Source: a bacterium | GTDB lineage: Bacteria; Campylobacterota; Campylobacteria; Campylobacterales; Sulfurimonadaceae | Reading direction: 5' to 3' | Assembly: GCA_018825665.1 (NCBI GenBank) | Contig: JAHJEG010000038.1 | Location: 1-64,000 of the forward strand | DNA length: 64,000 nt | Part shown: one piece after another, positions 6,370 through 29,345 of the stretch | Numbering within the stretch: the stretch's first letter is position 1 | How the letters are laid out: every line of letters starts with the position of its first letter | Made by a program: the position numbers and the translations under genes | The notes under the pieces: generated by a model | What the model was told of the DNA's origin: nothing | Databases searched by the model: none | Seen by the model: the letters and a program-made list of their open reading frames with translations, nothing else

Positions 6370-7164
6370 TTATTCATCATCTTTTGCAAATTTTTCATAT
6401 AAAAAGCTTAATATAGCTTCTCTGCACCGAATATATTCAGGGTCATGCTGAAGTTCAACCCTGTTTCTTGGTCGCTCCAGATTGACTTCCAAAATTTCAC
6501 CTATGGTAGCCTCCGGACCGTTTGTCATCATAATGACTCGATCACTTAAGAGTACGGCTTCATCAATGTCATGGGTGATTACGATTACGGTATTTTTGAC
6601 ATTTTGCTGAATCCTCATAAGGTGTTCTTGCAGATTTGCCCGCGTGAGCGAATCAAGTGCTCCAAAAGGCTCATCCATAAGCAAAACTTTCGGCTGTATT
6701 GAAAGAGCTCTCGCAATACCAACACGCTGCTTCATCCCTCCGCTTATCTCTCCTGGGAGTTTGTCCTTCGCATGATCCAGGTTTACCATGGATACGAATT
6801 TTTCTACTCTTTCTCGAAGTTCAAAAGCACTAAGTTCAGGCATTACTTTTTTTACAGCCATCTCTATATTTTGATAAACGCTTAACCATGGAAGAAGTGA
6901 ATGGTTTTGAAAAACGACTGCACGTTCAGGTCCCGGACCCTGTACATGTTTGTTTTCAAGAAGGATAGCACCTTCGGTTTGTGCATCCAAACCCGATATC
7001 ATATTTAAGAGGGTACTTTTACCGCAGCCGCTGTGCCCTATAATAGAGATTATCTCATTCTTCTTAATCTCCAGATTCACATCGGTCACCGCTATATAAT
7101 CTTCTTTTCCTGGAATTGGAAATCTTTTTTCAATATTCTGTAAACTTAAAAATTTTTCACTCAT
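6370..7164 (-). CDS. nrtD: Nitrate ABC transporter ATP-binding protein
   Basis: This is the 264-residue ATPase of a nitrate/sulfonate/taurine-type importer. Walker A GHSGCGKST is at 43-51, the ABC signature is ISGGMKQR, Walker B is VLLMDEP followed by the GALD D-loop, and the switch His lies in ITHDIDEA. It would drive import of nitrate captured by NrtA through NrtB. It has no C-terminal NrtA-like regulatory domain (no nrtC-type subunit is present), so the importer is the simple NrtABD form. Its ATG overlaps the stop of nrtB by one base (TAATG), so the two are translationally coupled. Nitrate specificity is inferred from the flanking nitrate reductase gene. Confidence 0.9.
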   Translation of the reverse strand: MSEKFLSLQNIEKRFPIPGKEDYIAVTDVNLEIKKNEIISIIGHSGCGKSTLLNMISGLDAQTEGAILLENKHVQGPGPERAVVFQNHSLLPWLSVYQNIEMAVKKVMPELSAFELRERVEKFVSMVNLDHAKDKLPGEISGGMKQRVGIARALSIQPKVLLMDEPFGALDSLTRANLQEHLMRIQQNVKNTVIVITHDIDEAVLLSDRVIMMTNGPEATIGEILEVNLERPRNRVELQHDPEYIRCREAILSFLYEKFAKDDE

Positions 7165-7979
7165 TACGCTCTACCTTTTTTCGTATAATCAAAATAATCT
7201 GCAATTTTGCCCATAATAATATCCAAGAAGAAACCTATAAGACCTACAACGATAATACCTATAATAATATTATGATAGTTAAGGTTGTTATATTCATCCC
7301 AGATCCAAAAACCTATACCGATACCGCCTGTCAGCATCTCCGCCGCAACGATTACCAGCCATGCTATTCCCAAAGAAAGTCTCATCCCCGTAAAGATATA
7401 CGGCACGGAAACAGGCAAAATGATTTGGATGATCTTTTCCAGCGGAGAAAATCTCAGTACCTTGGCAACATTCATATAATCTTCACTGACGCTTTTGACA
7501 CCAAGAGCGGTGTTTATGATTATCGGCCATATAGAGGTGATAAATATGGTAGAAATCGCGGTCAGGTTTATATCCTGAAATATAAACAAAAGCAAAGGCA
7601 GCCATGCCAAAGGTGAAACGGGCTTGAATATCTGTATAAAAGGATTCAGAGCATACTGGGCAGTCTTGCTCATACCCACAAATAAACCCACCGGGACTCC
7701 GACTAATATTGCCAAAACAAATCCTGCAAAAACTCTCTCAAGGGAGGCTACTATCTGCCAAAATATCCCCTTGTCGTCCTGGTTGTTTACATAAAAGGGA
7801 TCAGATAAAACTCCAACCATCTCATCACCATCAGCATTCACACCGCCAAACGCAGCTACATAGGTATCAGTTGGCGTAGGAAAATCCTCAACCACATTTG
7901 CGATACCTGACCATATTTGTATAATAAATAGAAAAACCAAAAACGGCAAGACTATTTTTTTTACTAACTCTGTATTCAT
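7164..7979 (-). CDS. nrtB: Nitrate ABC transporter permease
   Basis: This is a 271-residue integral membrane permease of the binding-protein-dependent transport family, with about six membrane segments. The first is near residues 9-27, followed by a periplasmic loop with a PTP/DTYVAAFGG segment. The conserved EAA-type cytoplasmic loop is recognisable near SEDYMNVAKVL followed by SPLEKIIQIILP. It forms the channel for NrtA-delivered nitrate and pairs with NrtD, whose gene overlaps it by one base. It is separated from nrtA by a 161-bp structured spacer (see 8015-8136). Confidence 0.9.
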   Translation of the reverse strand: MNTELVKKIVLPFLVFLFIIQIWSGIANVVEDFPTPTDTYVAAFGGVNADGDEMVGVLSDPFYVNNQDDKGIFWQIVASLERVFAGFVLAILVGVPVGLFVGMSKTAQYALNPFIQIFKPVSPLAWLPLLLFIFQDINLTAISTIFITSIWPIIINTALGVKSVSEDYMNVAKVLRFSPLEKIIQIILPVSVPYIFTGMRLSLGIAWLVIVAAEMLTGGIGIGFWIWDEYNNLNYHNIIIGIIVVGLIGFFLDIIMGKIADYFDYTKKGRA

Positions 7980-8140: not shown

Positions 8141-9523
8141 TTATTTTTTTGTTACAAATTTAGGGTCTGCACATCCCGCCGGTCCATAAGGACATACATA
8201 GCTTGGTTGTTGCGTTGTAACCGTCCATGTATTGGCTTTTAAAAGCTCCTCTTTTGTGACTAAAGGATTTGTTACTTTGAAGCTGTAAATATACTCGACT
8301 GCCTGATTAGGGTCATATACTTTGCCGTCCATAAACATATTGTATTTATCCACACCGTCTTTCTTCCATGGGCTTGGAGGAAGTGAGTAGCCAATCTCTT
8401 TTGCAACTTCTGCAAAAAGGTCAGGACGATATACAGATTCAATGACGGCTTTCATGTCAACGGGTTTGTCAAGCTGACCCCATCTGTACATTTGAGTGAT
8501 AAACCACATTCCGTGAGAGTAAAAAGGATATGCAGCATAGTAGTTTGCAAAAACATTAAACTGTGGATTTTCCTCTGATTTTTGCCCTTTTAAGTACTGA
8601 AACGTACCTGTCATCGATTTCTCCAAAACACTTACAGGTGCTTTTACGTAGTTAGGCTTACTAAGGATTTTTGCCGCTTCTTTACGGTTTTCCCATGAAG
8701 CGTCCAGCCACATTTGAGCTTCGATAATCGCTTTCATAACAGCTTTTGTCGTCTCAGGATTTTTTTCTATAAAATCAGCTCTTGTTTGCAATACTTTTTC
8801 AGGATTGTTATTCCAGATATCATAGTTGGTAACAAGGGTTGAACCTTTTTTCTTTAAAACGATTCTTTCATTCCATGGCTCACCGACACAGTACCCTTCG
8901 ATATTTCCGGCAATAAGGTTTGAGGGCATAGTCGGAGGCGGAAAAGGTTTGATGGTTGTGTCACGGTCAGGCTCTATCCCCGAAGTCGCCATCCAGTAAC
9001 GAAGTTCATAGTTATGCGTGGATACCGGGTGAACCATACCGAAATTAAGCGGTTGGTAGTTTCCCTTCTCTGCTATATGTTTCGCATCAATATATTTTTT
9101 AAGTGATTCAGAACCGAGCGGACGCTTTTTTTCATCCATACCGTGCTCTTTCATCTTCTCGATTATATTATTTCCAAATGTGATTCCGTTACCGTTAAAG
9201 TCAAGAGATAAAACAGCTTGAAGATTTGCATTACCGTTTATCCCTAATGTCGCAGCAATCGGCATACCGGCAAGCGCATGTGAAAAATCATACTCTCCAG
9301 AAATGACTTTTTGCTGGATTCCCGGCCATCCGCCGCCTTCTTTAACGACATGCACATCCAAACCGTATTTGTCAAAAAAACCTTTTTCCTCAGCAATAAC
9401 GATAGGAGCACAGTCAGTCAGGGCGATAAAACCTATTGTCAACTTTTTCTTTTCAACTTCAGCCAATAATGATGTGGCAACCAACGATAAACCTAAACCT
9501 AATCCAACTAATTTCTTTAGCAT
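8141..9523 (-). CDS. nrtA: Nitrate ABC transporter substrate-binding protein
   Basis: This 460-residue periplasmic binding protein belongs to the NrtA/CmpA/SsuA group. Residues 1-22 form a Sec-type signal peptide (LVGLGLGLSLVATSLLA, cleavage near LLA-EV) rather than the Tat or lipoprotein signals often seen in this family. The mature part opens with the family pattern IGFIALTDCAPIVIAEEKGFFDKYGL, which forms the first lobe. It should capture nitrate (possibly nitrite) in the periplasm for NrtBD. The start is set by ATG at 9523 with AAGGAT upstream. It is transcribed divergently from the first nitrate reductase gene and shares its control region. Confidence 0.9.
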   Translation of the reverse strand: MLKKLVGLGLGLSLVATSLLAEVEKKKLTIGFIALTDCAPIVIAEEKGFFDKYGLDVHVVKEGGGWPGIQQKVISGEYDFSHALAGMPIAATLGINGNANLQAVLSLDFNGNGITFGNNIIEKMKEHGMDEKKRPLGSESLKKYIDAKHIAEKGNYQPLNFGMVHPVSTHNYELRYWMATSGIEPDRDTTIKPFPPPTMPSNLIAGNIEGYCVGEPWNERIVLKKKGSTLVTNYDIWNNNPEKVLQTRADFIEKNPETTKAVMKAIIEAQMWLDASWENRKEAAKILSKPNYVKAPVSVLEKSMTGTFQYLKGQKSEENPQFNVFANYYAAYPFYSHGMWFITQMYRWGQLDKPVDMKAVIESVYRPDLFAEVAKEIGYSLPPSPWKKDGVDKYNMFMDGKVYDPNQAVEYIYSFKVTNPLVTKEELLKANTWTVTTQQPSYVCPYGPAGCADPKFVTKK

Positions 9524-9532
9524 CTTTTATCC

Positions 9533-9660
9533 TTAAATTTACATTTTTTAAATGTTTGATTAGGAATTATACTACGATAGTAACACTAAATATGCAGTTA
9601 AATGATTAAAAATTATACAATATAATCTTAAGATTACATTAAATAGTATTGTATTATACT
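9533..9660. promoter_or_regulatory. Divergent nrtA / narB1 control region
   Basis: On the minus strand a TATAAT -10 for nrtA is at 9566-9571, inside ATTATACTACGA (9566-9577). On the plus strand the shared motif AAAAATTATACA starts at 9608 and ends in TTACATTAAAT at 9644; a -10 candidate for narB1 is TATTAT at 9652-9657 or TATACT at 9655-9660. A box TTAAGATTACATTAA (9628-9642) lies 95 bp from a weaker copy TTAAATTTACATTTT (9533-9547). A perfect 14-bp palindrome TAATCTTAAGATTA spans 9623-9636. The region 9533-9644 aligns without gaps to 14626-14737, with about 76 of 112 positions identical by my hand count. Confidence 0.75.
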
Positions 9661-9686
9661 GCTTAGAATACAATATGGAGTCTTTT

Positions 9687-11669
9687 ATGATTAGGTCTGT
9701 TTGCGGGTATTGCGGTGTCGGTTGCGGTATAGAGTTTGATGTGAGTAAGCTTATCGGGGATGTCACATATCCTATTAATGAGGGCAAGGTATGTTCAAAA
9801 GGTGTATCCGAATTGATAAGCATTCAAACTTCTACAAGGCTGCTAAGGCCGCAGGTAAGAAAAAATATAGAGGATGCGTATGCAATTTCAAGCTGGCAAA
9901 AGAGTATCTCTTTAATAGGAAATGCAGTTAAAAACACCGATAAAGATAAAATAGGTTTTTATCTCTCCGGTCAACTTCTCACGGAAGATTATTACATAGC
10001 CAATAAGCTGGGCAAGGGTTTTATAGGCACAAACAATGTGGATACAAACAGCCGCACCTGTATGTCAAGCGCCGTTACAGCCTATAAAAAATCGCTTGGG
10101 GCGGATTTCGTGCCTTTAAGGATGGAGGATATATTTAAGAGTGACCTGCTCATACTTGCAGGTGCAAATACGGCAGAAGCGCATGTGGTCTTTCACAATC
10201 AGATCAAAAAAGCCAAAAAGTCAGGTTTGAAAATCGTTGTTATCGATCCAAGGCTTACAGATACCGCAAAAATAGCAGACATTTATCTTCCTTTAAAAGC
10301 AGGAAGCGATATCGATTTTTTTAATTTGATCTCAAAAAGGCTGATTGATGAAGATTTATATGATAAAGAGTTCGTGGAGCAGCATATCAACAATTTTGAA
10401 CTCTTAAAAAACAAGTTTAAAAGAGTTCCCGTTACAAAAATGCTCAAACGTACAGGACTCTCAAGCGAGCAGTTCGAAGAGTTTTGGCAGCTTTATAAAA
10501 AGAGTAAGAACATAATATCATCCTGGACAATGGGCTTGAATCAATCTTCACAGGGGGTTGACAAAAATCTGGCACTCATCAATACACATCTGCTAAGCGG
10601 AAAAATATTCAAAGAGGGAAATGGTCCGTTAAGCCTTACCGGACAGCCAAATGCAATGGGCGGAAGGGAGGTAGGAGGGCTCTCAACCGTCCTTGCCGTC
10701 CATCTTGGCTTTGATGAGAAGAGTATAAAAAAAGTTTCAAAATTTTGGAATACGGATAAAATTGATACCAAAGTCGGTCTTACAGCGACGCAGATGTTCG
10801 AAGCAAACTTGGATCTTTTGATAATCTGCCACACAGACCCCGTATACCATCTTCCAAATAGACATAAAGTAGAAGAGCTTATAAAAAAGATACCTATGGT
10901 CGTGGAGATTAATGCTTATGAAAACTCTGAAACCTCGAAGTTCGCCCATATAAGGCTTCCGGCTTCTCCATGGGGAGAAAAAGAGGGCACGCAGACCAAT
11001 CTTGACAGAACGATTACAAAGCAGATGAAACTTACAAGAACCTCTATAGACTGTAAGCCCGATTGGGAAATATTTCAGTTGATTGCGCAGGAACTTGGCT
11101 TTGAAAAAGAGTTTTGTTTTAAAAATACCAAAGAGATATTTGAAGAATACCAGCAGATGACCAAGCTCAACGATTATATGGACATAAGCGAAGCTTCTTA
11201 TGATGCGTTGAGTGATACGCCTTTTATTTGGGGTAAAAAAATAAAAAACTTTTTGACACCTGACAAAAAAGGGAATCTGTTTTTTGTTGAGAACAAACTT
11301 TTAAGCGAAAAGGTCTCTTTGGAATATCCTTTCGTGCTTTTGACGGGAAGAACAAGAGACCAGTGGCACAGCGGAACAAAAACAAATCTGCCAATGACCT
11401 TGTTAAAATATAAAGAGCTTAATTTTTGTGAGATACATCCAAAGGATGCAGAGCTATTGAATGTCAAAGAGGGAGATACGATAAAGGTTACCTCAAGAAG
11501 GGGAGAACTTTTAACAAAGGCACTTGTAACGGAGTCTATCAGAGAAAAAACTATTTTTATACCCATAAGCAACAGAGAGATAAATTATCTCACCAATGAT
11601 TTGCTTGACAGGGAATCTTTACAGCCCGATTATAATCACAGTGCGGTAAAGATACAAAAAATAGAATAA
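9687..11669 (+). CDS. narB: Assimilatory nitrate reductase catalytic subunit, first copy
   Basis: This 660-residue molybdopterin (bis-MGD) oxidoreductase of the NarB/NasA type reduces nitrate to nitrite in the cytoplasm; there is no Tat signal. The N-terminal [4Fe-4S] ligands are Cys6, Cys9, Cys13 and Cys36. Cys125 in SRTCMSSAV is the expected molybdenum ligand, and the C-terminal domain has RTRDQWHSGTKT. It is somewhat shorter than most family members and has no extra C-terminal [2Fe-2S] domain, so its electrons should come from ferredoxin or another small carrier. ATG at 9687 is chosen because GGAG at 9677-9680 is well placed; the in-frame ATG at 9675 contains that ribosome binding site. 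Confidence 0.87.
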   Translation: MIRSVCGYCGVGCGIEFDVSKLIGDVTYPINEGKVCSKGVSELISIQTSTRLLRPQVRKNIEDAYAISSWQKSISLIGNAVKNTDKDKIGFYLSGQLLTEDYYIANKLGKGFIGTNNVDTNSRTCMSSAVTAYKKSLGADFVPLRMEDIFKSDLLILAGANTAEAHVVFHNQIKKAKKSGLKIVVIDPRLTDTAKIADIYLPLKAGSDIDFFNLISKRLIDEDLYDKEFVEQHINNFELLKNKFKRVPVTKMLKRTGLSSEQFEEFWQLYKKSKNIISSWTMGLNQSSQGVDKNLALINTHLLSGKIFKEGNGPLSLTGQPNAMGGREVGGLSTVLAVHLGFDEKSIKKVSKFWNTDKIDTKVGLTATQMFEANLDLLIICHTDPVYHLPNRHKVEELIKKIPMVVEINAYENSETSKFAHIRLPASPWGEKEGTQTNLDRTITKQMKLTRTSIDCKPDWEIFQLIAQELGFEKEFCFKNTKEIFEEYQQMTKLNDYMDISEASYDALSDTPFIWGKKIKNFLTPDKKGNLFFVENKLLSEKVSLEYPFVLLTGRTRDQWHSGTKTNLPMTLLKYKELNFCEIHPKDAELLNVKEGDTIKVTSRRGELLTKALVTESIREKTIFIPISNREINYLTNDLLDRESLQPDYNHSAVKIQKIE

Positions 11670-11674
11670 AAAAA

Positions 11675-13312
11675 TTATTTACAGCAGTACAACACAAGAA
11701 AAAGATTTATGACAAACATAATAGTAAAAGCCCAGCGGTAAAACAATGCCGGAGAGCGTTCTATGATGGTGCTTTCTTTGAAAAAGAAGGGTTTTACCTT
11801 ATGCGGATTGTTTATCTCGAAATCCATCTCTGAGTAATTGTTGTATCTAGCGTTTTTATCAGTCGAGATGGAGCGCAGAATCACGCTGTCAAGCCAGTCA
11901 GGGATATTTTTATTATAAGTACTTGGTTTTTTTGCATTTTTAAATACGGGGTTTTGAAAAGGTTCAATCTCCCCGTAAGGGTATTTTCCACTCAGGCAGA
12001 GATATAAAGTCACTCCTATTGAGAACATTTCGCTTGATTCGCTTATCGCTTCGTTTTGAAACCTGTCAGGAGATAAAAAGCTAGGTGTTCCCGCTTTTGT
12101 ATCTGTAGAAAATATCTCTGTCATATTCCCAAAATCGATTATTTTAAAGCTTGAGTTTTGCTGTTTGTCTTTTAAGATGATAATATTATGAGGTTTTATA
12201 TCACCGTGGACCAAATCATATTTTAAAAGATATTGGGCCATTTTTAGGAGCGTAGCGGCCAACTGTACGGTGTCGTCAATGGAGAGGCAATTTGTCGAAA
12301 GATAATCATTTAGATTTTCACCCTTAAAATACTGCATGATATAGTAACACTGCGTTCTGTTTTTTGGAATGACCGCTTTTGGAAAGATCTCATACTTGAG
12401 TCTTTTGGCATTCCAGGCTTCTTTGATAAAAAGGTCGTGTTTTTTTGTATCGTCTATAACTTCCAAAGGGGCGAATTTGATGACATACTGCTTTGTCTTT
12501 TTTGAGCACAGCCAGGTTCTGTTATTGTTGATAAGCGATTTTTCCAGAACATAGCCATCAATATTCTCTCCTCTGTTTAGTTTCTGCGAAATGAAGAGCT
12601 TTTGTTGCTTGAGTCCTTCAATTTCATCCGCTTTTAGGATATCCAGGACCACGGCCGTCGTATCATCGGGAAGCATATCTTCCATCAGTCTGCTTGCTTT
12701 TTTTACTAAGCTCGATGCTCCTGAACTTATCCCTCTCTCAAGACGATTGTCGCTCATGATATTGTAAAGTCCGTCACTGCAAAGAAGTATCTTGTCTCCC
12801 TTTTGAATGATGTTTTCAAAATAGTAGGGCTCGACATCTTTTTCTATTCCTATGGCCTGAGTCAGGACATTTTCATATCCCGCTTCATCCATTGAATGAT
12901 CAAAAGACAATTGTGTCAGAGTTTTATCTCTAAAGAGATAGATTCTGCTGTCACCGACATTCGCTCCATAGAGGCGATTGCCCTCTATCACGACCAGGGT
13001 GAGTGTTGTTACAAGTTCGCTTCGTTCATAGTTTGTTTGGGATTCCTGGTAAAGTATAGCGTTGATCGATTTGATGAAAGTGCTTATTGATTTTTCAATA
13101 CTCCAGGATTTTGGACGTATTTTGAAGTTGTTGATGAGGTAGTTTGTCACCCTTTTTGCAGCTTCTGCACCCTCAGCGGCACTTCCTACTCCATCACACA
13201 CTACGGCAATACTTACATTGCCGATAATTTTGAAATCATAAAAGTCATCACCAACCAGTTCCTTGCCTTTTGCCAATGAAAAACCCGAGCCTTTAATATT
13301 GATGGATGACAT
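11675..13312 (-). CDS. PP2C phosphatase - Ser/Thr protein kinase fusion, nitrate locus
   Basis: This 545-residue signalling protein joins two opposite activities. The N-terminal ~240 residues are a PP2C phosphatase (VCDGVGSAAEG, ANVGDSRIYLF, LCSDGLYN, PDDTTAVV with the metal-binding Asp residues). The second half is a protein kinase with VIKFAP (ATP-site Lys), catalytic loop HGDIKPHN near residue 367 in place of the usual HRD, an intact DFG, and a GTPSFLSPDR activation segment; the glycine-rich loop is poor. A single C-terminal membrane anchor ends in LYCCK. ATG at 13312 follows AAAGGAAA; the frame is open further but would overlap narK. It lies 14 bp after narK in the same operon. From memory, similar fusions occur beside nitrate-assimilation genes in Pseudomonas, so a role in sensing or tuning nitrate use is plausible. 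Confidence 0.85.
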   Translation of the reverse strand: MSSINIKGSGFSLAKGKELVGDDFYDFKIIGNVSIAVVCDGVGSAAEGAEAAKRVTNYLINNFKIRPKSWSIEKSISTFIKSINAILYQESQTNYERSELVTTLTLVVIEGNRLYGANVGDSRIYLFRDKTLTQLSFDHSMDEAGYENVLTQAIGIEKDVEPYYFENIIQKGDKILLCSDGLYNIMSDNRLERGISSGASSLVKKASRLMEDMLPDDTTAVVLDILKADEIEGLKQQKLFISQKLNRGENIDGYVLEKSLINNNRTWLCSKKTKQYVIKFAPLEVIDDTKKHDLFIKEAWNAKRLKYEIFPKAVIPKNRTQCYYIMQYFKGENLNDYLSTNCLSIDDTVQLAATLLKMAQYLLKYDLVHGDIKPHNIIILKDKQQNSSFKIIDFGNMTEIFSTDTKAGTPSFLSPDRFQNEAISESSEMFSIGVTLYLCLSGKYPYGEIEPFQNPVFKNAKKPSTYNKNIPDWLDSVILRSISTDKNARYNNYSEMDFEINNPHKVKPFFFKESTIIERSPALFYRWAFTIMFVINLFLVLYCCK

Positions 13313-13326
13313 TGTATTTCCTTTGC

Positions 13327-14607
13327 CTAAATTCTTCCGCCGGCACTCACGCCCCAGGTGGTTCTCCATCTGGTCTTTACTAAAGAGATTCCCATAAGAG
13401 CTATCATAACAACTGCCGCAAATATTATGAAACCTGCCGCATAACCGTCAAATGCACCCTTGCTCCATCCCAGAGTTTTAATAAGTGCCGTACCGCCAAG
13501 GCCGCCTGCTGCACCTATTATCCCCGTCATAATACCGATATCCTTACCAAATCTTTGGGGAACCAACTGAAATACTGCACCGTTTGCCATACCAAGACTT
13601 GCCATGATTAAAAACAAAACCAAGATAGCAACACCAAAAGGAAGTGTCATTGTAGCATTTAAGACAGCCAAAAGAGTCACCGTACCAAAGAAGATATATA
13701 AAGATTTAATACCTCCAAGCTTATCCGCAACAGCACCGCCAACAGGACGGAGAATAGCACCTGCAAAGATACATAAGGCTCCAAAATAACCGGCTACGAC
13801 TTTAACATTTCCCTCATTAAGGACATCCATACCAAAGACACTCATATCCGCCTGGTAAGTGTTCATCAGATAGACTTTCATATATCCCGCAAAGCCTACG
13901 AAACCACCGAAACTTACGGCATAAAAAAGGTTAAACCACCAAGTATCTTTGTCTTTTAGCAATTTGCCATAATCTTTTAATTTTTTAGGATTTGCTTTGT
14001 ATACATCTTCGGGAGCATCTTTTGCCATAAACATATATGTGACAAAGATGATGGACGAGAGAACCGCACCTACTAAAAAAACTGCTTCCCAACCCCATAT
14101 TTCAGCAATCTTTGGAGCAAATAAGAAGTCGATTACAACACCTATATTTCCGGCACCTGCAATTCCCAAAACAACACCCTGAAGTTTTGGCGGATACCAT
14201 TGACCCGCCTGCGGAAGTGCTACGGCAAAAGAGGCACCTGCAAAACCAAGACCGAATGCCACGTAAAGAAGCTCATCATACGTGATGTTCGCACCCCTGA
14301 AATATGCGTAAAACAAAACAGCGATAACAACGGACTGAGCCATAAGGGCAGTTTTTTTCGCTCCAAACTTATCCACACCAAACCCCAGCAGGATTCTCAA
14401 AAGCGCACCGGCTAAAATAGGGATAGAAAGAAGTGTCGCCTTTTCCCCGGCACTCATCATAAAACCGCCGATAGCCAATGATTCACTTATCTCTGTTGAG
14501 AGTGGCCCGAGCATAGTCCACACCATAAAACTAAAATCGAAATACAAAAACGCCGCTAAAAGCGTCGGCCAGTGACCTTGCCCTTTTAATGCCTTAAATC
14601 CTGCCAT
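13327..14607 (-). CDS. narK: NarK/NasA-type nitrate transporter (MFS)
   Basis: This 426-residue major facilitator protein has about 12 membrane segments and belongs to the nitrate/nitrite porter family. The two glycine-rich nitrate signatures are present in variant form: GIAGAGNIG in the first half and GIIGAAGGLGG in the second half, with DFSFMVW in the first helix. It should bring nitrate into the cytoplasm (or exchange it for nitrite) and provides a second uptake route beside NrtABD. ATG at 14607 has AAAGGAAG upstream. It is the first gene of an operon with the PP2C/kinase fusion and is divergent from the ferredoxin-DmsC gene. Confidence 0.9.
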   Translation of the reverse strand: MAGFKALKGQGHWPTLLAAFLYFDFSFMVWTMLGPLSTEISESLAIGGFMMSAGEKATLLSIPILAGALLRILLGFGVDKFGAKKTALMAQSVVIAVLFYAYFRGANITYDELLYVAFGLGFAGASFAVALPQAGQWYPPKLQGVVLGIAGAGNIGVVIDFLFAPKIAEIWGWEAVFLVGAVLSSIIFVTYMFMAKDAPEDVYKANPKKLKDYGKLLKDKDTWWFNLFYAVSFGGFVGFAGYMKVYLMNTYQADMSVFGMDVLNEGNVKVVAGYFGALCIFAGAILRPVGGAVADKLGGIKSLYIFFGTVTLLAVLNATMTLPFGVAILVLFLIMASLGMANGAVFQLVPQRFGKDIGIMTGIIGAAGGLGGTALIKTLGWSKGAFDGYAAGFIIFAAVVMIALMGISLVKTRWRTTWGVSAGGRI

Positions 14608-14625
14608 TTTTCTTCCTTTGTAAAC

Positions 14626-14749
14626 TTAATTTTTCATTAAGTATTTGTTGAATGCAAAATTATACTACGAATATATGGAAAATATAACAGCATATTGCTT
14701 AAAAATTATACAGCATAATATTAATTTTACATTAAATTGCTGATAAAAT
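14626..14749. promoter_or_regulatory. Divergent narK / ferredoxin-DmsC control region
   Basis: On the minus strand a TATAAT -10 for narK is at 14659-14664 inside ATTATACTACGA (14659-14670), the same 12 bases as in front of nrtA. The shared motif AAAAATTATACA starts at 14701 and ends in TTACATTAAAT at 14737, followed by a -10 candidate TAAAAT at 14744-14749 for the plus-strand operon. Two symmetrical boxes, TTAATTTTTCATTAA (14626-14640) and TTAATTTTACATTAA (14721-14735), are 95 bp apart. The layout is an ungapped match to the nrtA/narB1 region. Confidence 0.78.
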
Positions 14750-14781: not shown

Positions 14782-16362
14782 ATGATAAATATTATGCAAA
14801 CACCACTGGAGAGTTTTATAGATTACAAAGCTGAGACCGGCATGCAATGCGGAAACTACTCCATAGACATTCCAAAATTACAAGAGGGTGAGCAATACAG
14901 GTTCCACTTTGACGCGGTTGCCTGTGTGGGATGCCGCTGTTGTGAAGTGGCATGCAATGAACAAAACAATAATCCCGCAGATATAAAGTGGAGAAGAGTG
15001 GGTGAGATGGAAGGGGGAGTCTTCCCTGCCTTTACTCAGCTTTTAAACTCTATGAGCTGCAACCACTGTATAGATCCTGAATGTCTAAGAGGCTGTCCGA
15101 CAAACTCGTATATAAAGATAGCAGAGACGGGAATCGTAGTGCATGAAGATGAGACCTGCATAGGATGTCAGTATTGTACCTGGAACTGTCCTTACGGCGT
15201 ACCCGTATATCACGATGAACGCAATATTGTGACGAAATGCCATATGTGCCATGAGAAACTCGATGTCGGTCAAACCCCTGCCTGTGTGCAGGCTTGTCCC
15301 TCTGGGGCGATAGAGATTGAAGCGGTGAATGTTCAAGAGTGGCTTGAGCGGGATATGGACAAAGAAGCAAATATGCCGTTCCTGCCGGATGCCCGCATCA
15401 CAAACTCTACGACCAGATATACATTGCCTGAAAATATGCCTGAAGATATGAAGGAGATGGATGAGCATATCCTCAAGCCCGCCCACTCTGAGATGCCTCT
15501 GGTATTTATGACGGTTCTAACCCAGATCTCACTTGGGGGATTTTTTGCACTTTTTATGGGTGATGTGATGAGCCTTTTTGGCTTTGAGGGAGCCAACTGG
15601 ATTATGGCACTCTTGGTGATGCTTCCGGCAGCTCTAGGGCTCCCGCTCTCAGTACTTCATTTGGGTCGCCCGTTTTTGGCGCTTACTGCTATGAAAAATA
15701 TAAAAACATCCTGGTTATCGCGTGAGGCATTGGCTCTTGGGGTGTTTACGGCATTGATGAATATAGTCGTCGTTTTATATCTTATGGAAGTTGCACATGC
15801 CATACGATTATTTGTTGAGGCTGTAACCTTGGCATGTGGAATCTACGGCATTTATGCCCAGAGTATGATTTACCGCATAAAAGCCAGACCCTCGTGGAAC
15901 AGAATCACTACCAATACGAAGTTTTTCGGTGTGGCGTATGTCGGTGTATTTATGCTTGGGCTTTTGGCTGTCTTTCTTGGAATGCTCGAAGTTGCCTTGC
16001 CGTTGATTGTTTTGGCAATGCTGGGTGCTTTGGCTCAGATATTTTTTAGCTATGAAGACTTGCGAACCTTGGATACACAAAACGAAAACCACTACCAATT
16101 GCAAAGAACGAAGAGACTCTACGAAGAGAACTTTTCAAAAGTAAAACTGTTTCGTTTTATTACTCTTGTTGCAGGAGGCGTTCTTTTCCCCTTACTGGCA
16201 GTGGTATTTTTAAGTGCATCCTCCTATGCCGGAGCAGCCGTAGTAGCTCTTTTGTCATTGGTGTTGATGTTTGCCAGTGAGCTAAGCGATAGATTCTTGT
16301 TTTATTCCACTGTGGTTCCTTTGGGCATGGCAGGCGGATTTTTTGTAGGAAAGTCACGATAA
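14782..16362 (+). CDS. Fusion of four-cluster ferredoxin subunit and DmsC-type membrane anchor
   Basis: This 526-residue protein combines the electron-transfer and membrane subunits of a DMSO-reductase-type enzyme. Residues ~40-205 are DmsB/NrfC-like with four [4Fe-4S] motifs: C48xxC51xxC54xxxC58, CNHCxxxxCLRGC, CIGCQYCTWNC, and CHMCxxxxxxxxxxACVQAC. From about residue 250 there are eight membrane segments of the DmsC family, with the signature LHLGRP followed by SWLSRE. No signal peptide is present, so the Fe-S part stays in the cytoplasm. It should pass electrons from membrane quinol to the nitrate reductase encoded 21 bp downstream. ATG at 14782 follows GGAATACATTT; an earlier TTG at 14737 lies inside the promoter motif and is rejected. 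Confidence 0.88.
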   Translation: MINIMQTPLESFIDYKAETGMQCGNYSIDIPKLQEGEQYRFHFDAVACVGCRCCEVACNEQNNNPADIKWRRVGEMEGGVFPAFTQLLNSMSCNHCIDPECLRGCPTNSYIKIAETGIVVHEDETCIGCQYCTWNCPYGVPVYHDERNIVTKCHMCHEKLDVGQTPACVQACPSGAIEIEAVNVQEWLERDMDKEANMPFLPDARITNSTTRYTLPENMPEDMKEMDEHILKPAHSEMPLVFMTVLTQISLGGFFALFMGDVMSLFGFEGANWIMALLVMLPAALGLPLSVLHLGRPFLALTAMKNIKTSWLSREALALGVFTALMNIVVVLYLMEVAHAIRLFVEAVTLACGIYGIYAQSMIYRIKARPSWNRITTNTKFFGVAYVGVFMLGLLAVFLGMLEVALPLIVLAMLGALAQIFFSYEDLRTLDTQNENHYQLQRTKRLYEENFSKVKLFRFITLVAGGVLFPLLAVVFLSASSYAGAAVVALLSLVLMFASELSDRFLFYSTVVPLGMAGGFFVGKSR

Positions 16363-16383: not shown

Positions 16384-18675
16384 ATGATAGGTACGATAAA
16401 AGATTTTTTAGGTTTTGATATAAAAGCGGACAAATACAAACTCTCCGCCGATCCTCAGTTTGGGATGATAAGTGATGAAAAAAAGCCGGATAAATGGGTG
16501 TTCTCAACCTGCGGATACTGCGGAGTGGGATGTGGACTTTATATCGGTGTAAAAGAGGGCAAGGCGCTCTACACAAAAGGAAATCCCAAACATTTTGTAA
16601 ATCAGGGAACCCTCTGCCCAAAGGGTTTAAGTGAACATCAGATGATAGACTCACCTCACAGGATAAGGACACCTCTTATCAGAAAAGAGGGCGTGCTGCA
16701 TCCTGCATCCTGGGATGAGGCGTATACAAAAGTGGGGGATGCATTTAAAAGTATCGCAAAGAAACACGGAGAAAAAGCAGTGGGGGTTATCTCTACGGGA
16801 CAGCTTCTGACAGAGGAGTTCTACACTCTTGGCAAGTTTGTGCAGCTTGGTCTGAGAACAAACAACTTTGACGGGAACACGACTCTGTGTATGGCTTCTG
16901 CCGTGATGGGCTATAAACAATCCTTGGGGAGTGACGGTCCCGTAGGTTCCTATGAAGATTTTGAAAAAGCGGATGTTATTTTTCTTATTGGCGCGAATAT
17001 CGCGGACAATCATCCTATTTTGACCCTGCATATCAACAAGAACAAGAATCCGAAGAAAAAAGTGATTGTGATAGACCCGAGAGCTTCAAAGACTTCCCAG
17101 ATGGCGGATATCTATGTACCGATAAAAGCCAGAACAGACTTGGCACTTTTTAACGGCTTGGCCTATATCATTATAGAGCAGGGCTGGGAAGATGAGGGCT
17201 ATGTCCGGGCAAATACAAACGGCTACAACGAACTCAAAAAACACCTGCAAAACTATCCTCCGCAGGAAGTGGCAAATATCACGGGGATAGATGTAAAAAC
17301 GCTTTATGAACTTGCCCGAGAGTTTGGGGCAAATGATGCGGTGCTGAGTGCGTGGACCATGGGTGTAAATCAGTCTTTTATGGGAACAGATACGGTGAGT
17401 GCTATTATCAATCTGCACCTTTTAACGGGACATATCGGGAAAGAGGGTGCAGGACCTTTTTCCATAACAGGGCAGTGCAACGCGATGGGGACAAGAGAGA
17501 GCGGTTTTACATCTTCGCTTCCGGCATACAGAAATTTCGGAGATGAAAAGGCCTTGAAAGAATATGCACAGATAGTCAATGTTCCCGAAGCAATCGTCCC
17601 GACCGCCCGTGGATACAAATATGCGGAGATAATAGACGCGATAGACAGAGGGGAGATAAAAGCTCTTTGGATAGTGGCGACGAATCCTCTTGTGAGCTTT
17701 GTACATCAGGAGAAGCTTCGCAAGACCCTGGCAAAATTGGACTTGCTGGTGGTGCAAGACGCATTTTTGGGAGACACGGCAGAGATAGCCGATGTGGTTT
17801 TTGCAGCTGCGACATGGGGTGAAAAAGAGGGAACGTATACAAATTCGGAGAGACGATGCAATCGTGCGAATAAGGCGGTTGAACCCATAGGAGAGGCTAA
17901 AAGCGATTTTGATATCGTTGTGGAGTTCTCAAAACAGTTTGAGGGAGTCAATGCATTGCTTTTTCCTAAATGGCAAACACCTTTGGATGCTTTTAATGAG
18001 TTTAAAAAACTCAGTGAAGGACAGCTTTGTGATTATTCCGGGATGAGTTATGAACTCCTGGAGGAGCAAGGCGGTATTCAGTGGCCGTGCAACACCCAGC
18101 GCCCACTTGGCACGAAAAGACTTTATTCTCCGGATATCGCCTTTAGAACCAAGGATAAAAAAGCGAATCTTATCTGTGCAGACTGGTTCCCTATGGCAGA
18201 GCCTGCAAGCCCGGAATTTCCGGCTATTTTAAATACGGGCCGTACGGTGGAACAATGGCACACCCGCACAAAAACCCGCTCTATTGAGATACTTGACAAC
18301 TTGGCTCCCGAGGCATGGGCAGATATAAATCCGCAAGATGCAAGGGCGTTAAAAGTAAAAAGCGGAGACAGACTCTCTATCTCAAGTGCAAGGGGAAGAG
18401 TGGACGATGTCATCGTGCGAGTGACGCAAAGCGTGGCATGTGGAAATGTATTTGTTCCTTTTCATTTCAACACACAGCTTGTAAATGCTCTTACAAACGA
18501 GAGTTTTTGCCCAAAATCAGGCGAGCCAAACTTCAAACAAACTGCAATTCAGCTCCATTCGGATGAGGTTCCGGAGGGCTTAAAGTTTGCACAACAGGAG
18601 ATAAGCGGAGAAATAGAACATGTAAAAACAGCATACGAGGGGATAAAAGTGAAGGAAAAGGAGAAGCAGGCTTAG
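16384..18675 (+). CDS. Assimilatory-type nitrate reductase catalytic subunit, second copy
   Basis: This 763-residue bis-MGD molybdoenzyme is a paralogue of the protein at 9687-11669. A 40-residue leader precedes the [4Fe-4S] site (Cys43, Cys46, Cys50, Cys78); Cys169 in TTLCMASAV is the likely molybdenum ligand; the cofactor region contains GQCNAMGTRE, and near the C-terminus RTVEQWHTRTKT is typical of NarB/NasA. There is no Tat motif, so it is cytoplasmic. Its partner should be the Fe-S/DmsC fusion immediately upstream, giving a quinol-linked nitrate reductase. It is about 100 residues longer than the first copy, mostly in the N-terminal leader and C-terminal tail, which may dock the Fe-S partner. 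Other oxyanion substrates cannot be excluded by sequence alone. Confidence 0.85.
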   Translation: MIGTIKDFLGFDIKADKYKLSADPQFGMISDEKKPDKWVFSTCGYCGVGCGLYIGVKEGKALYTKGNPKHFVNQGTLCPKGLSEHQMIDSPHRIRTPLIRKEGVLHPASWDEAYTKVGDAFKSIAKKHGEKAVGVISTGQLLTEEFYTLGKFVQLGLRTNNFDGNTTLCMASAVMGYKQSLGSDGPVGSYEDFEKADVIFLIGANIADNHPILTLHINKNKNPKKKVIVIDPRASKTSQMADIYVPIKARTDLALFNGLAYIIIEQGWEDEGYVRANTNGYNELKKHLQNYPPQEVANITGIDVKTLYELAREFGANDAVLSAWTMGVNQSFMGTDTVSAIINLHLLTGHIGKEGAGPFSITGQCNAMGTRESGFTSSLPAYRNFGDEKALKEYAQIVNVPEAIVPTARGYKYAEIIDAIDRGEIKALWIVATNPLVSFVHQEKLRKTLAKLDLLVVQDAFLGDTAEIADVVFAAATWGEKEGTYTNSERRCNRANKAVEPIGEAKSDFDIVVEFSKQFEGVNALLFPKWQTPLDAFNEFKKLSEGQLCDYSGMSYELLEEQGGIQWPCNTQRPLGTKRLYSPDIAFRTKDKKANLICADWFPMAEPASPEFPAILNTGRTVEQWHTRTKTRSIEILDNLAPEAWADINPQDARALKVKSGDRLSISSARGRVDDVIVRVTQSVACGNVFVPFHFNTQLVNALTNESFCPKSGEPNFKQTAIQLHSDEVPEGLKFAQQEISGEIEHVKTAYEGIKVKEKEKQA

Positions 18676-19600: not shown

Positions 19601-21127
19601 CTATTTTCTCTTTAACTCAAACAAATCCGTTCTTCTGTCTTTTAGGTTTTTGACACTTCCAAACTGATTTAATTCTCTGAGCAGATCTATATCAACATCC
19701 GCTATCAAAATCATTTCGCTGTTGGGAGTAGCTTCAGCTTTTATCCCGTTTGTGGGAAAAGCAAAGTCACAAGGGGTAAAGACCATAGACTGGGCAAACT
19801 GCATATCCATATTGTGTACATTTGGGAGGTTCCCTACGCTTCCTGCAATAGCGACATAACATTCATTTTCAATAGCCCGGGCCTGAGAACAGTGTCTTAC
19901 CCTTGAGTAACCGTTTTGCGTATCCGTTAAAAACGGGACAAAGAGGATATCCATCCCCTCATCGGCGAGCAGTCTGCTAAGTTCAGGAAATTCAGAATCA
20001 TAACAAATCAGGATACCTATCTTTCCGCAGTCGGTATCAAATGTTTTAAGTCCGCTTCCGCCTTGCATACCCCATACTTTTTCCTCATCCGGAGTCACAT
20101 GGATTTTTTCATATCTCTCAATCGTGCCGTCTCGTCTGCATAAATATCCGACATTGTACAAACGGCCGTCTTTCATCTCGGGCATGCTTCCTGAGATAAT
20201 GTTTATATTATAGGAGATAGAGAGTTCTGAAAATTTCTCAATGATGCTGTCTGTATGTTTTGCCAGCTCTCTAATAGCATCAGGTTCGGAGAGATGATTG
20301 TTTTCAGCCATCAGGGGTGCATTGAAAAACTCAGGGAACAGGGCGAAATCGGAACGGTACCCCGAGAGGGTGTCTATAAAATACTCAGCCTGCTGTAACA
20401 AGTCCTCCAAGTGTTTATAAGGGCGCATCTGCCATTGTACCAGACCTAAACGAACTATTTTTTTCTTTGTAGAAACTTTTTTATTGGGCTTTTCATAATA
20501 AATATTGTCCCATTCAAGTAAAACGGCAAACTCCCCTGATGCTTCGTCCCCTTCCAGGTATCCGGATAAAATTTTTGAGGGATGAAAATCATTGGATACC
20601 TGAAAATTAAGAACAGGGTCATCAATCTCTTTTCTTTTTACTTTTTCTATATATTCTTTTGGTGAAAGTTCATGTTCGTACTTATGGTAGTTGGGGATTC
20701 TTCCGCCAAAAGCAATCCCTTTGAGATTGAGTCTTTCGCATAACTCTTTTCTGTAGTCATACAGACGTCTGCCCAATCGCATACCCCTAAATTCAGGTTT
20801 GATAAACACATCGATTCCGTAGAGCATATCCCCTTCGTCCGTATGCGTGTTAAAGCTGTAGTTTTGGGTGATTTCACGGTAGGTGTGCTTATCCGAAAAA
20901 TCTTCGTAATTGACAATGATAGACAGAGCACACCCGGCAATCTCCCCATTGACCTTAATCACAATCTGACCTTCTGAAAATTTTTTAATCAGTGCTTCGA
21001 TATGTTTTTCCGTCCAATACGATTCAGGCAGGGAGTGATAAATCACTATCATCGTTTTTTTCAACTCCTGATAGTCATCCATACTCAGATATACCAGTTC
21101 TATATTTTCTTTTTCTTGCTTTTGCAT
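19601..21127 (-). CDS. GNAT acetyltransferase - carbon-nitrogen hydrolase fusion
   Basis: This 508-residue two-domain protein starts with a GNAT N-acetyltransferase (residues ~8-170; acetyl-CoA loop near EFRGMRLGRRLYDYR). Residues ~225-480 are a nitrilase-superfamily hydrolase with the full triad: Glu in LFPEFF, Lys in YEKIHVTP and Cys375 in LICYDSEFPEL. The same two-domain order is known in many bacteria, but its substrate is unsettled; an amide-processing or amide-repair role is a guess. ATG at 21127 is the natural start. It lies 69 bp after the YajG-like lipoprotein gene on the same strand. Confidence 0.87.
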   Translation of the reverse strand: MQKQEKENIELVYLSMDDYQELKKTMIVIYHSLPESYWTEKHIEALIKKFSEGQIVIKVNGEIAGCALSIIVNYEDFSDKHTYREITQNYSFNTHTDEGDMLYGIDVFIKPEFRGMRLGRRLYDYRKELCERLNLKGIAFGGRIPNYHKYEHELSPKEYIEKVKRKEIDDPVLNFQVSNDFHPSKILSGYLEGDEASGEFAVLLEWDNIYYEKPNKKVSTKKKIVRLGLVQWQMRPYKHLEDLLQQAEYFIDTLSGYRSDFALFPEFFNAPLMAENNHLSEPDAIRELAKHTDSIIEKFSELSISYNINIISGSMPEMKDGRLYNVGYLCRRDGTIERYEKIHVTPDEEKVWGMQGGSGLKTFDTDCGKIGILICYDSEFPELSRLLADEGMDILFVPFLTDTQNGYSRVRHCSQARAIENECYVAIAGSVGNLPNVHNMDMQFAQSMVFTPCDFAFPTNGIKAEATPNSEMILIADVDIDLLRELNQFGSVKNLKDRRTDLFELKRK

Positions 21128-26799: not shown

Positions 26800-26840
26800 A
26801 CAAGAGATATCTTTATTCTTATCACCCTCTTTTTAAAAAC

Positions 26841-26963
26841 TTAATTTTTCATTAATTAAAATCCAGAAACACCTATTTTTTCTTTAAAAATAAAATATTA
26901 TCATTTTTTTGTCTAAAATTTATACAATTAGTATTAATTTTACATTAAATCAAATGATATAAT
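26841..26963 (+). promoter_or_regulatory. cobA-nirA control region with nitrate-regulon motif
   Basis: The 207-bp spacer upstream of cobA carries the same elements as the two divergent nitrate promoters: TTAATTTTTCATTAA (26841-26855), TTATACA (26920-26926) and TTAATTTTACATTAA (26934-26948) running into ATTAAAT at 26950, then TATAAT at 26958-26963 as the -10. The boxes are 93 bp apart. The 18 bases AACTTAATTTTTCATTAA are identical to those in front of narK. The ATTATACTACGA segment is absent, as expected where there is no divergent gene. Confidence 0.78.
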
Positions 26964-27006: not shown

Positions 27007-27756
27007 ATGGAAACATTACCAAAAGTATATTTAGTCGGTTGCGGTACAGGTGATGTTGAACTCTTGACCATCAAAGCGTATAAAATAATCCAAAGTGTGG
27101 ATGTTGTGTTTATTGACCATCTTATAGCGGCTGAAATCATAGAGATAATCCCAGAAAATACAAAAAAAGTATTTGTAGGAAAACAAAAAGGTTTTCATTC
27201 CCTTAAACAAGAGGAGATAAATGAACTCTTGATTGCACATGCCAGAGATGGCTTGAGCATAGCAAGACTAAAAAGCGGAGATCCCTATATTTTTGGTCGC
27301 GGGAGCGAAGAAGCTATCTCTTTGGCAGAGGAAGGTATCGGAGTCGAAGTTATTCCCGGCATATCATCGGCTTTGGCAGCTCCTTTGCTCGCAGGCATTG
27401 CCCCAACAGCAAGAGGGTATGCAACAAATCTCTCTATAGTATCGGCACATTTAGCCGGAAACAGAGTCAATTTGGAGTGGCTGCCGTTGCTTAAAATGTC
27501 AAATCATACCGTAGTAGTTTTGATGGGAGTATCACGGGCAAAAGAGATATATGCATGTGCCAAAAAAATCGGAGTGGATATGAATATAGATGCTGCGGTC
27601 ATCTCAAACGCATCAAGAAAAAACCAGAGTGTGCGTATAGGTAGTGTGTCAAATTTGGAATCTATTTGTGAAGATGCACCCAGACCCGCACTCATCGTAT
27701 TTGGCGATGTAGTGAAACTACACGAAATCTTACCTAAAACAGAATTTGGAGAATAA
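27007..27756 (+). CDS. cobA: Uroporphyrinogen-III C-methyltransferase
   Basis: This 249-residue SAM-dependent methyltransferase (SUMT) makes precorrin-2, the precursor of siroheme. The N-terminal glycine-rich motif VYLVGCGTGDVELLTIKA, the ARLKSGDPYIFGRG substrate/SAM loop and EVIPGISSALAAP are diagnostic. It lacks the extra CysG dehydrogenase/chelatase domains, so those steps must be encoded elsewhere. It lies 2 bp before nirA, and its final codons hold the GGAG for nirA. The pairing with a siroheme enzyme and the shared nitrate-regulon promoter indicate a dedicated siroheme supply for nitrite reduction. Confidence 0.93.
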   Translation: METLPKVYLVGCGTGDVELLTIKAYKIIQSVDVVFIDHLIAAEIIEIIPENTKKVFVGKQKGFHSLKQEEINELLIAHARDGLSIARLKSGDPYIFGRGSEEAISLAEEGIGVEVIPGISSALAAPLLAGIAPTARGYATNLSIVSAHLAGNRVNLEWLPLLKMSNHTVVVLMGVSRAKEIYACAKKIGVDMNIDAAVISNASRKNQSVRIGSVSNLESICEDAPRPALIVFGDVVKLHEILPKTEFGE

Positions 27757-27758
27757 AT

Positions 27759-29345
27759 ATGGAAACCTTGCAAAAAGCCTTTGATGAAAGAAACACAAAA
27801 CTTAACAAGATAGAAAAAATCAAAGAGCTGAAAACTCCTATGAGTGTGTATGAAAAACTCGATGAGATATGCTCTAAGGGCGTAGCCGATGTAAGAGATG
27901 AAGACACTGCCTATTTTTTTAAATGTTTTGGGATATACCACAAAAAAGATGATACGTTTATGCTTCGCTTACGAATTGCGGCCGGACAGCTGAGCGTGGA
28001 ACAAGCACAAAAAATCGGAGAGATCTCCCATAGATTTGGAGATGACTACATCGATATAACGACCAGACAGCAGATAGAATTAAGATTCCTGAAACTTGAG
28101 GATTTGCCTGTAGTTCTAAAAGAACTCGAGAGCGTCGGGATAAGCCCTTTTCAAACAGGAGTTGATAATTTCAGAAACATTGTTACCAGCTCGTTTGACG
28201 GACTTGGAGATAAAAATATTCTTGTCTGCAAGCCGATTATAGATGAACTTCAGGAGATTTTTTTTAAAAAAGAGGATTGGATAGGGGTTTTACCAAGAAA
28301 ATTCAATACTGCAATCCTGGGGACTAAAACCAATGACTGCAATATCTACGGACATGACTGTTGTTTTGTGGCCGCATTTAAAGACAATGCCATAGGTTTC
28401 AACCTTTACCTTGGAGGCAAGGTTGGAATCCAGGCGGAGGACAGCGGACTTTTTATAGCTCAAAATGAGGTAGTGCAAACTTTTAAGGCGATAATAAACC
28501 TTTTTAGAGAGTATGGGTTTAGAGATAACAGGAACAAAAACAGACTCCATTTTTTACTTGAAGCAGTGGGTATGCAAGAGTTTGTCAAAGCGATAAAAGC
28601 AACAAGCGGATTAGACTATAAAAGCAGCGGGGATATACTCTCAAAAGATGAATATATCTTAGATGACAGCGGAGTGTTTTATCTGGGAGATAATTTGGAT
28701 GCCGTACATTTTAGTATACCGAGCGGGATATTCAAAGGAAGCGATTTAATCAAGGCTGCCGACCTGGCATGTGCAAATGATGCACAAATAAGATTGTCTG
28801 TGGAACAGAGTTTTTATCTTGTCGCCCAGAGTAACAAGGTAAAGAGTATTCAAGATTCCGAACTCTATAAAGAGTACAGTGCCTACCATAACACCTATTT
28901 TAATCATCAGATAGCATGTGCGGGAACAGCGACATGCAGTTTTGGAGTTATTCCGAATAAACCCGATGCCATAGAGATGGCAAATTATTTACAGCGTGAA
29001 GTGCCGCTGAAGAATGCAAAAGTCAGGATGTACTGGTCCGGATGTGTCAAAGGATGCGGAATACACGGGATAGCGGATATAGGTTTTGAAGGTTGTAAGG
29101 CTAAGGATGATAATGGAAATACCTGCTACGGCGTTCATATCTTTATAGGCGGAAAAGCTACCCAAAAAGCAAAAGAAGCTAGAATACTTTACAAGTCGGT
29201 TCCTTTAACAAAAGCCAGGGATTTGGTGAAAGACTTGATGATTTTCTACAAAAATGAGAGACTAGAAGGTGAGAGTTTTGAAAAGTTCGATACAAGGGTT
29301 TTGAGCAGATTAAGTGTTGAGGAAATTACTTCAAAGCAATATTAA
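27759..29345 (+). CDS. nirA: Ferredoxin-nitrite reductase
   Basis: This 528-residue siroheme/[4Fe-4S] reductase of the nitrite/sulfite reductase family takes six electrons to convert nitrite to ammonium in the cytoplasm. The cluster ligands appear as CAGTATC (CX5C) and CVKGC (CX3C). The N-terminal half has the family pattern DDYIDITTRQQIELRFL and DNFRNIVTSSFDG. A sulfite-reducing role is possible from sequence alone, but cobA and the shared promoter elements with the nitrate transport and reductase genes argue for nitrite. The large FAD/NAD(P)H subunit (NirB type) is absent, so ferredoxin is the likely donor. Confidence 0.9.
   Translation: METLQKAFDERNTKLNKIEKIKELKTPMSVYEKLDEICSKGVADVRDEDTAYFFKCFGIYHKKDDTFMLRLRIAAGQLSVEQAQKIGEISHRFGDDYIDITTRQQIELRFLKLEDLPVVLKELESVGISPFQTGVDNFRNIVTSSFDGLGDKNILVCKPIIDELQEIFFKKEDWIGVLPRKFNTAILGTKTNDCNIYGHDCCFVAAFKDNAIGFNLYLGGKVGIQAEDSGLFIAQNEVVQTFKAIINLFREYGFRDNRNKNRLHFLLEAVGMQEFVKAIKATSGLDYKSSGDILSKDEYILDDSGVFYLGDNLDAVHFSIPSGIFKGSDLIKAADLACANDAQIRLSVEQSFYLVAQSNKVKSIQDSELYKEYSAYHNTYFNHQIACAGTATCSFGVIPNKPDAIEMANYLQREVPLKNAKVRMYWSGCVKGCGIHGIADIGFEGCKAKDDNGNTCYGVHIFIGGKATQKAKEARILYKSVPLTKARDLVKDLMIFYKNERLEGESFEKFDTRVLSRLSVEEITSKQY

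Follow-up and report, generated by a model that had tools for sequence, protein, structure and literature searches.

Two divergent nitrate promoters of a Sulfurimonadaceae bacterium are probably compound operators rather than copies of a duplicated gene unit

In the nitrate island of a Sulfurimonadaceae bacterium (Campylobacterota), two divergent promoter regions resemble each other over 112 base pairs (bp), raising the question of whether a transporter/reductase unit was duplicated or whether the same regulatory sites were placed twice. The window, the whole stretch analysed here, comprises positions 1 to 64,000 of contig JAHJEG010000038.1 (assembly GCA_018825665.1). Module 1 lies between nrtA and narB1, and module 2 between narK and a ferredoxin-DmsC fusion gene. 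Judged from sequence, the best explanation overall is that the modules are probably compound operators, each combining an N-box, the candidate site of a small NtrC-like protein (mini-NtrC), with two elements, B1 and B2, of a looping regulator, and that no gene unit was duplicated. The elements, their spacings, the regulon and the co-occurrence pattern are computed directly.

Each region is a divergent promoter flanked by an uptake gene on the left and a reductase block on the right, as a preliminary description held, and its hand count of about 76 matches in 112 positions is exact for the ungapped alignment of 9533-9644 with 14626-14737. In the shuffle control named there, dinucleotide shuffles with the register fixed (n = 10,000) give a mean of 41.1 identities (standard deviation 4.7, maximum 59), and shuffles scored at the best of all registers across both intergenic regions (n = 300) give 52.9 (standard deviation 2.2, maximum 61), so that the observed 76 exceeds the maximum. 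Within the window, the best plus-strand partner of each module is the other module, the runner-up reaching 54-55. A search of the host genome with 9524-9700 as query returns module 2 as the sole match (expect value, E, 2e-7), all others having E > 0.05.

The matching stretch extends from the start of B1 (9532/14625) to the end of B2 (9642/14735) and is composed of four blocks. From left to right, B1 (CTTAATTTTWCATTAA-like) comes first, followed by the leftward -10, by the N-box, which is a palindrome of 19 bp with the form TTGNNTA-N5-TANNCAA, and by B2, a second B copy in the same orientation as B1. Identity is 12/16 in B1, 13/14 in the leftward -10 block, 16/19 in the N-box and 13/16 in B2, amounting to 54/65 in the blocks combined and 21/46 in the remaining spacers against 15.1 expected (P 0.04); the borders were set after the alignment had been viewed, and these figures are a description rather than a test.

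When B and N matrices are run over both strands of the window, only three triplets exceed the threshold, with B1/N/B2 offsets of 0/70/95, 0/70/95 and 0/69/93 (starts in Table 1); these matrices included sites from the window and its relatives, and the test that counts is that of matrices built from the host genome only and applied to the relatives. The third copy (26840-26948), overlooked in the preliminary description, lies upstream of two genes that we take to be cobA (siroheme) and nirA (nitrite reductase), named by recognition of their sequence. The relatives are 34 close Campylobacterota loci from a NarB1 search, many of them metagenome-assembled. The host-genome-only position weight matrices (PWMs) recover the triplet at their nas promoters, namely between nrtA and narB1, between narK and nirA, between a kinase gene and narB1, and upstream of a cupredoxin/haem-copper-type operon. 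Across 61 genomes of the family, most occurrences of the exact B pattern are at nas promoters and once more form triplets, among them narK/cobA, narK/nirA and porin/narB1. The left-hand gene is variable (nrtA, narK, kinase, porin or none), and on the right there is almost always a reductase gene or operon. The earlier proposal that the conserved blocks mark what regulator and polymerase need is supported by this recurrence at the same spacing. Since loci of Sulfurimonas-like relatives mostly keep their N-boxes and lack B, N and B are separate inputs. The triplets in front of cupredoxin/CoxB-like and haem-copper oxidase-like genes are located downstream of narB1 (L009:12066-12175, L010:12077-12187, L040:905-1014). 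The oxidase-like gene behind them is possibly a nitric oxide reductase, and in L010 the ferredoxin-DmsC gene follows this group.

The spacing of the B elements is quantized. In 1.04 Mb of nas loci, 32 same-oriented B pairs lie 20-250 bp apart, all of them at 67, 72-73, 85-86 or 93-96 bp, corresponding to about seven, eight or mostly nine helical turns; their sequences are related and the draws not independent, and they span different gene pairs and several genera. The individual distances are 67, 72 (4 pairs), 73, 85, 86, 93, 94 (6), 95 (13) and 96 bp (4), the 67-bp pair being a weak match that overlaps the 73-bp pair. Most pairs enclose an N-box; three of the 72-bp pairs, from Arcobacter loci, have no good one in between. 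In the 85-96 bp pairs, the N-box to B2 distance is nearly constant (about 23-26 bp), and the distance to B1 shifts by whole turns. Numbered from the reductase promoter, B2 would span about -36 to -21, and numbered from the transporter promoter, B1 would span about +12 to +27; the orientation is always towards the reductase. Because the B spacing comes in whole turns and both elements occupy typical repressor positions, these nitrate-specific elements are probably operators of a looping repressor that encloses the N-box.

A possible but rather doubtful alternative is an activator on both B1 and B2, for instance an OmpR-type protein that recognises CTTAA-CATTAA repeats; B2 would then take the place of the -35, as Pho boxes do, and B1 would act as an upstream helper. 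This arrangement would suit the end of B2 some 8-10 bp upstream of the -10, the fixed orientation and the possibility of reading B as a direct repeat in which two C's are 10 bp apart, but B1 is situated downstream of the start of the transporter promoter, a position typical of repressors, and whole-turn distances over 70-95 bp agree with looping. The OmpR-type response regulator beside the L009/L011 nas cluster was rejected as the B reader, having only 26-32% paralogues in B-carrying genomes, which also tells against the activator. Two simpler assignments were discarded as well: as a plain -35, the TTTACA of B2 would leave a spacer of 12-13 bp, and a role of B1 in the leader or ribosome site of the transporter gene is at odds with its presence at cobA-nirA, where no leftward gene exists. 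In L009 (116-4726) and L011 (3514-8133), a sensor kinase and two response regulators adjoin the kinase gene of the nas cluster; other B-carrying genomes are without them. The sensor kinase presumably has an NMT1-like periplasmic domain, of the same superfamily as NrtA.

The N-box is held at a fixed distance from the predicted -10. Among 126 site-direction pairs, the start of a TANAAT-like hexamer lies 40 bp from the N-box centre in 71 and 41 bp in 26, against a null of 8.25 per position. If the hexamer is numbered -12 to -7, the N-box centre falls near -52, and in the divergent modules it does so for both promoters. No sigma54 promoter was found downstream of the 126 site-directions. In the host genome, N-boxes also precede the amtB-glnK operon, a second amtB and a NifA-like gene. 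At the last of these (L062:6158-6176), the distance to the -10 is 30 instead of 40 bp, and nitrogen fixation may be under the N-box regulator too. The exact N-box pattern matches in 17 of the 61 family genomes, mostly at glnA, amtB, glnK, narK, nirA and narB, and the reversed control pattern matches in none of the 61. In a 200-genome sample of the phylum, 11 genomes have matches, mostly at nitrogen genes and from families f1, f5, f8 and f12, and the many f2 and f3 genomes in the sample have none; the reversed control matches in 2 of the 200. A matrix scan of the 1.6 Mb of a distant complete genome (G064, 26.6% GC) places narK, the glnK divergent region, glnA and nirA at the top of its gene-start sites, 66-78 bp from the start codon. 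Among the exact-site targets, no regulator gene carries a convincing N-box of its own that would hint at autoregulation. The best explanation is that the N-box serves as a general box for nitrogen status across Campylobacterota except in two large families, f2 and f3, which presumably are the Campylobacter- and Helicobacter-like ones. Elsewhere, an N-box (L100:14919-14937) precedes an ABC transporter operon running into urea carboxylase-like genes, which brings urea use into the regulon.

In the N-box, the outer TG...CA is spaced as in the 17-bp E. coli NtrC consensus TGCACCAnnnTGGTGCA (PMC8743547), and Fis-type helix-turn-helix (HTH) proteins were considered for this reason. In a PF02954 scan of 15 N-box genomes and 14 genomes from families without exact boxes, one class of open reading frames (ORFs) of about 264-289 residues occurs only in the N-box genomes. 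Its product, mini-NtrC, is roughly 250 residues long, begins at a degenerate AAA+ domain and ends in a C-terminal Fis-type HTH. Two members score 26.6 and 23.5 bits for PF02954 (cut-off 22); the others, at 13-19 bits, fall below the cut-off and align along their whole length. Scores for PF00158 and PF14532 are near or barely over the cut-offs, the Walker A and PPLRER regions being present and the middle missing. The GAFTGA loop is absent from all translated members; no Pfam match to a receiver domain was obtained, the proteins starting at the AAA+ domain. The best NCBIfam match is ntrC (E 4e-12 to 1e-8), and the nearest solved structures are of the NtrC family. A mini-NtrC profile finds exactly one copy in 55 of the 200 phylum genomes, distributed over f1, f4, f5, f6, f8-f12, part of f7 and one member of f2. 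In 11 genomes of f4, f5, f7, f8 and f9 the gene adjoins amtB/glnK, often with an N-box in between. These linked copies are often followed by a protein of 210-235 residues whose sole NCBIfam match is a weak one to NtrB (NR(II), E 2e-4 to 6e-3), and which may be a degenerate NtrB. Such neighbours are located at L154:3756-4388, L337:3270-3974, L336:5160-5867 and L339:3260-3922, the L337 copy being without an NCBIfam match.

The presence of mini-NtrC and that of the box coincide at glnA. When the glnA promoter is scored with an N-box matrix trained on family f1 only, all 16 mini-NtrC carriers score 6.1-20.4 and all 14 non-carriers 2.7 or less. Within f7, carriers score 16.7, 13.4 and 6.2, compared with 2.7, -0.7, -1.9, -7.2 and -7.2 in non-carriers; within f2, the glnA box is found only in G215, the mini-NtrC carrier. 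Box and protein would have been lost jointly on at least two or three occasions. Reference strains of C. jejuni are reported to have no canonical PII, NtrBC or Amt (PMC12795558), in keeping with this pattern of loss. Our literature search returned no nitrogen regulator or nitrogen box for the remainder of Campylobacterota. As the best-supported candidate, mini-NtrC is most likely the protein that binds the N-box.

It is unlikely that a different regulator, of LysR or Crp type for instance, reads the N-box and vanished from the same families, with mini-NtrC as a passenger. The loss events are few, mini-NtrC alone was profiled phyletically, and G064 encodes further candidate regulators, including three Crp-like and two LysR-like proteins; against this, mini-NtrC is a relative of the nitrogen regulator NtrC, is linked to amtB-glnK in five families, often with an N-box nearby, and the box has NtrC-type spacing of its outer TG...CA (PMC8743547). 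Crp/FNR and LysR proteins were set aside as readers by reasoning that the half-site spacing misfits FNR or NtcA geometry.

With mini-NtrC as the reader of the N-box, we infer its binding, the activation, the looping, the repression and the signals as follows. When ammonium is scarce or nitrogen is limiting, mini-NtrC would occupy the N-box and bring in sigma70 polymerase on either side. It would act at sigma70 promoters because it has neither a receiver nor the sigma54-contacting GAFTGA loop. A putative nas-specific regulator would bind both B1 and B2, looping the DNA around the N-box and repressing both promoters until nitrate or nitrite is present. In a broader form, to which we assign about an even chance, Campylobacterota outside the Campylobacter- and Helicobacter-like families would have a minimal Ntr system, in which mini-NtrC, joined in several families by a degenerate NtrB-like partner, serves sigma70 promoters through a 19-bp box close to -52. 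The nitrate genes would add a nine-turn looping regulator, and mini-NtrC and its boxes would have been lost together in those two families.

Several observations weigh against the compound operator. In f1, which includes the host genome (mini-NtrC at L351:3300-4085, plus strand), the gene sits between slyD and fabD, away from nitrogen genes. The glnA boxes of several carriers are weak (scores 6-9), the 16 carriers and 14 non-carriers were picked by family and not at random, and their co-occurrence is partly phylogenetic, the losses in f2, f3 and part of f7 being few events. For the B elements, looping and repression are argued from spacing and position, and a direct activating role of B2 beside the -10 is possible. 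The B element is a near inverted repeat and yet keeps a constant orientation, which points to no particular protein class as its reader.

The proposal that the island grew by duplicating a divergent transporter/reductase unit is not borne out, because the flanking genes are unrelated and the spacers are no more alike than those of unrelated modules. No similarity was found between NrtA (ABC binding protein) and NarK (MFS), nor between NarB1 and the ferredoxin-DmsC protein. The spacer identity of modules 1 and 2 has a z-score of 1.5, against a mean of 1.42 for modules of different genes in different genomes (n = 178), so that no within-genome excess is seen; the spacers of orthologous modules are more alike (mean 2.27). 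In relatives, the same layout also stands before nirA, cobA and the cupredoxin/haem-copper-type operon, or opposite a porin or kinase gene. That the modules are paralogous copies of one duplicated unit whose remainder has drifted is very unlikely: the 76/112 identity with co-linear blocks, the 13 identical bp around the leftward -10, a small excess beyond the hexamer's need that is left unexplained, the weak spacer excess and the distant paralogy of NarB1 and NarB2 (32% identity) speak for it, but the unrelated flanks, the third site in the window and the many other genes served in relatives do not. A very old common origin of the two promoters is possible.

The compound operator has counterparts in known systems. 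At E. coli nagE-nagB, NagC forms a loop with CRP in the middle. The modules would share with it two operators nine turns apart over two divergent promoters with an activator site between them; unlike it, they have a different operator sequence, a B pair also where no left-hand gene exists (cobA-nirA), and seven- and eight-turn variants in relatives. The cyanobacterial NtcA box, GTA-N8-TAC at -41.5, is a global nitrogen box. Like it, the N-box keeps a fixed distance to a sigma70 -10 and would control glnA, amt, nrt, nir and narB genes; unlike it, the N-box has a TG-N13-CA core and an odd centre near -52, and no NtcA was seen, although none was sought. TyrR/VpsR-type proteins are sigma70-acting relatives of bacterial enhancer-binding proteins, TyrR responding to aromatic amino acids. 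Mini-NtrC resembles them in its Fis-type HTH and a degenerate AAA+ domain that would not work through sigma54, and differs from TyrR in its tie to amtB-glnK and a nitrogen regulon. In Rhodobacter capsulatus and Caulobacter, NtrC proteins without GAFTGA act at sigma70 promoters (PMC10274813), and mini-NtrC is similar in its lack of the sigma54-contact loop and in its putative glnA-type target genes, sigma70 promoters and palindromic operator. Unlike these proteins, which keep a receiver and a full NtrB partner, mini-NtrC is receiverless at about 250 residues, most of its AAA+ core from Walker A to the R-finger region is gone, and its target would be TTGNNTA-N5-TANNCAA with a centre near -52. 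The analysis yields a predicted binding site with its regulon, a promoter layout that is fixed, and a single candidate gene. If the reading is true, it illustrates how reduction of a two-component enhancer-binding protein can give an activator that works with ordinary RNA polymerase. The B pairs form a natural series of seven-, eight- and nine-turn operator spacings.

Table 1 Elements and genes of the three modules in the window; -10 hexamers are assigned from position and sequence.
Feature	Position	Strand	Basis
B1, module 1 (CTTAAATTTACATTTT)	9532..9547	+	PWM scan of window; kept at same offset in relatives
-10 TATAAT, leftward nrtA promoter	9566..9571	-	First T 40 bp from N-box centre; sequence and 40-41 bp spacing statistics
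N-box, module 1, ATGATTA-AAAAT-TATACAA, centre 9611	9602..9620	.	Matrix scan; N-box regulon
B2, module 1 (CTTAAGATTACATTAA), 95 bp from B1	9627..9642	+	Matrix scan; B-pair spacing
-10-like TATTAT, rightward narB1 promoter	9652..9657	+	41 bp from N-box centre; sequence and spacing statistics
nrtA, nitrate ABC transporter binding protein	8141..9523	-	Pfam NMT1_2
nrtB; nrtC/D (downstream of nrtA)	7164..7979; 6370..7164		NCBIfam ntrB, ntrCD
narB1, assimilatory nitrate reductase-like molybdoenzyme	9687..11669	+	ORF opens 9675; start MIRSVCGYCG set by comparison with relatives
B1, module 2 (CTTAATTTTTCATTAA)	14625..14640	+	Matrix scan
-10 TATAAT, leftward narK promoter	14659..14664	-	First T 40 bp from N-box centre; sequence and spacing statistics
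N-box, module 2, TTGCTTA-AAAAT-TATACAG, centre 14704	14695..14713	.	Matrix scan
B2, module 2 (ATTAATTTTACATTAA), 95 bp from B1	14720..14735	+	Matrix scan; B-pair spacing
-10-like TAAAAT, rightward ferredoxin-DmsC promoter	14744..14749	+	40 bp from N-box centre; sequence and spacing statistics
narK, MFS nitrate/nitrite transporter	13327..14607	-	
Ferredoxin-DmsC fusion	14794..16362	+	ORF opens TTG 14737; start MQTPLESF set by comparison with relatives
narB2 (after ferredoxin-DmsC)	16384..18675		
B1, third module (cobA-nirA)	26840..26855	+	Matrix scan
N-box, third module, TTGTCTA-AAATT-TATACAA, centre 26918	26909..26927	.	Matrix scan
B2, third module, 93 bp from B1	26933..26948	+	Matrix scan; B-pair spacing
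-10 TATAAT, cobA-nirA promoter	26958..26963	+	40 bp from N-box centre; sequence
Third target unit	27007..29345	+	Translations; orthologues in relatives
cobA-like uroporphyrinogen-III methyltransferase	27007..27756	+	Translations; orthologues in relatives
nirA-like ferredoxin nitrite reductase	27759..29345	+	Translations; orthologues in relatives

Three further genes are located near these elements. A PP2C phosphatase-Ser/Thr kinase fusion gene (11675-13369) overlaps narK by 43 bp and adjoins narK in most of the relatives' nas clusters. The gene of a small sigma factor, which we take to be of ECF type, occupies 26353-26799 and ends about 40 bp before the B1 element of cobA-nirA. Near the nitrate island, at 19601-21127, a GNAT acetyltransferase domain is fused to a nitrilase-type carbon-nitrogen hydrolase.

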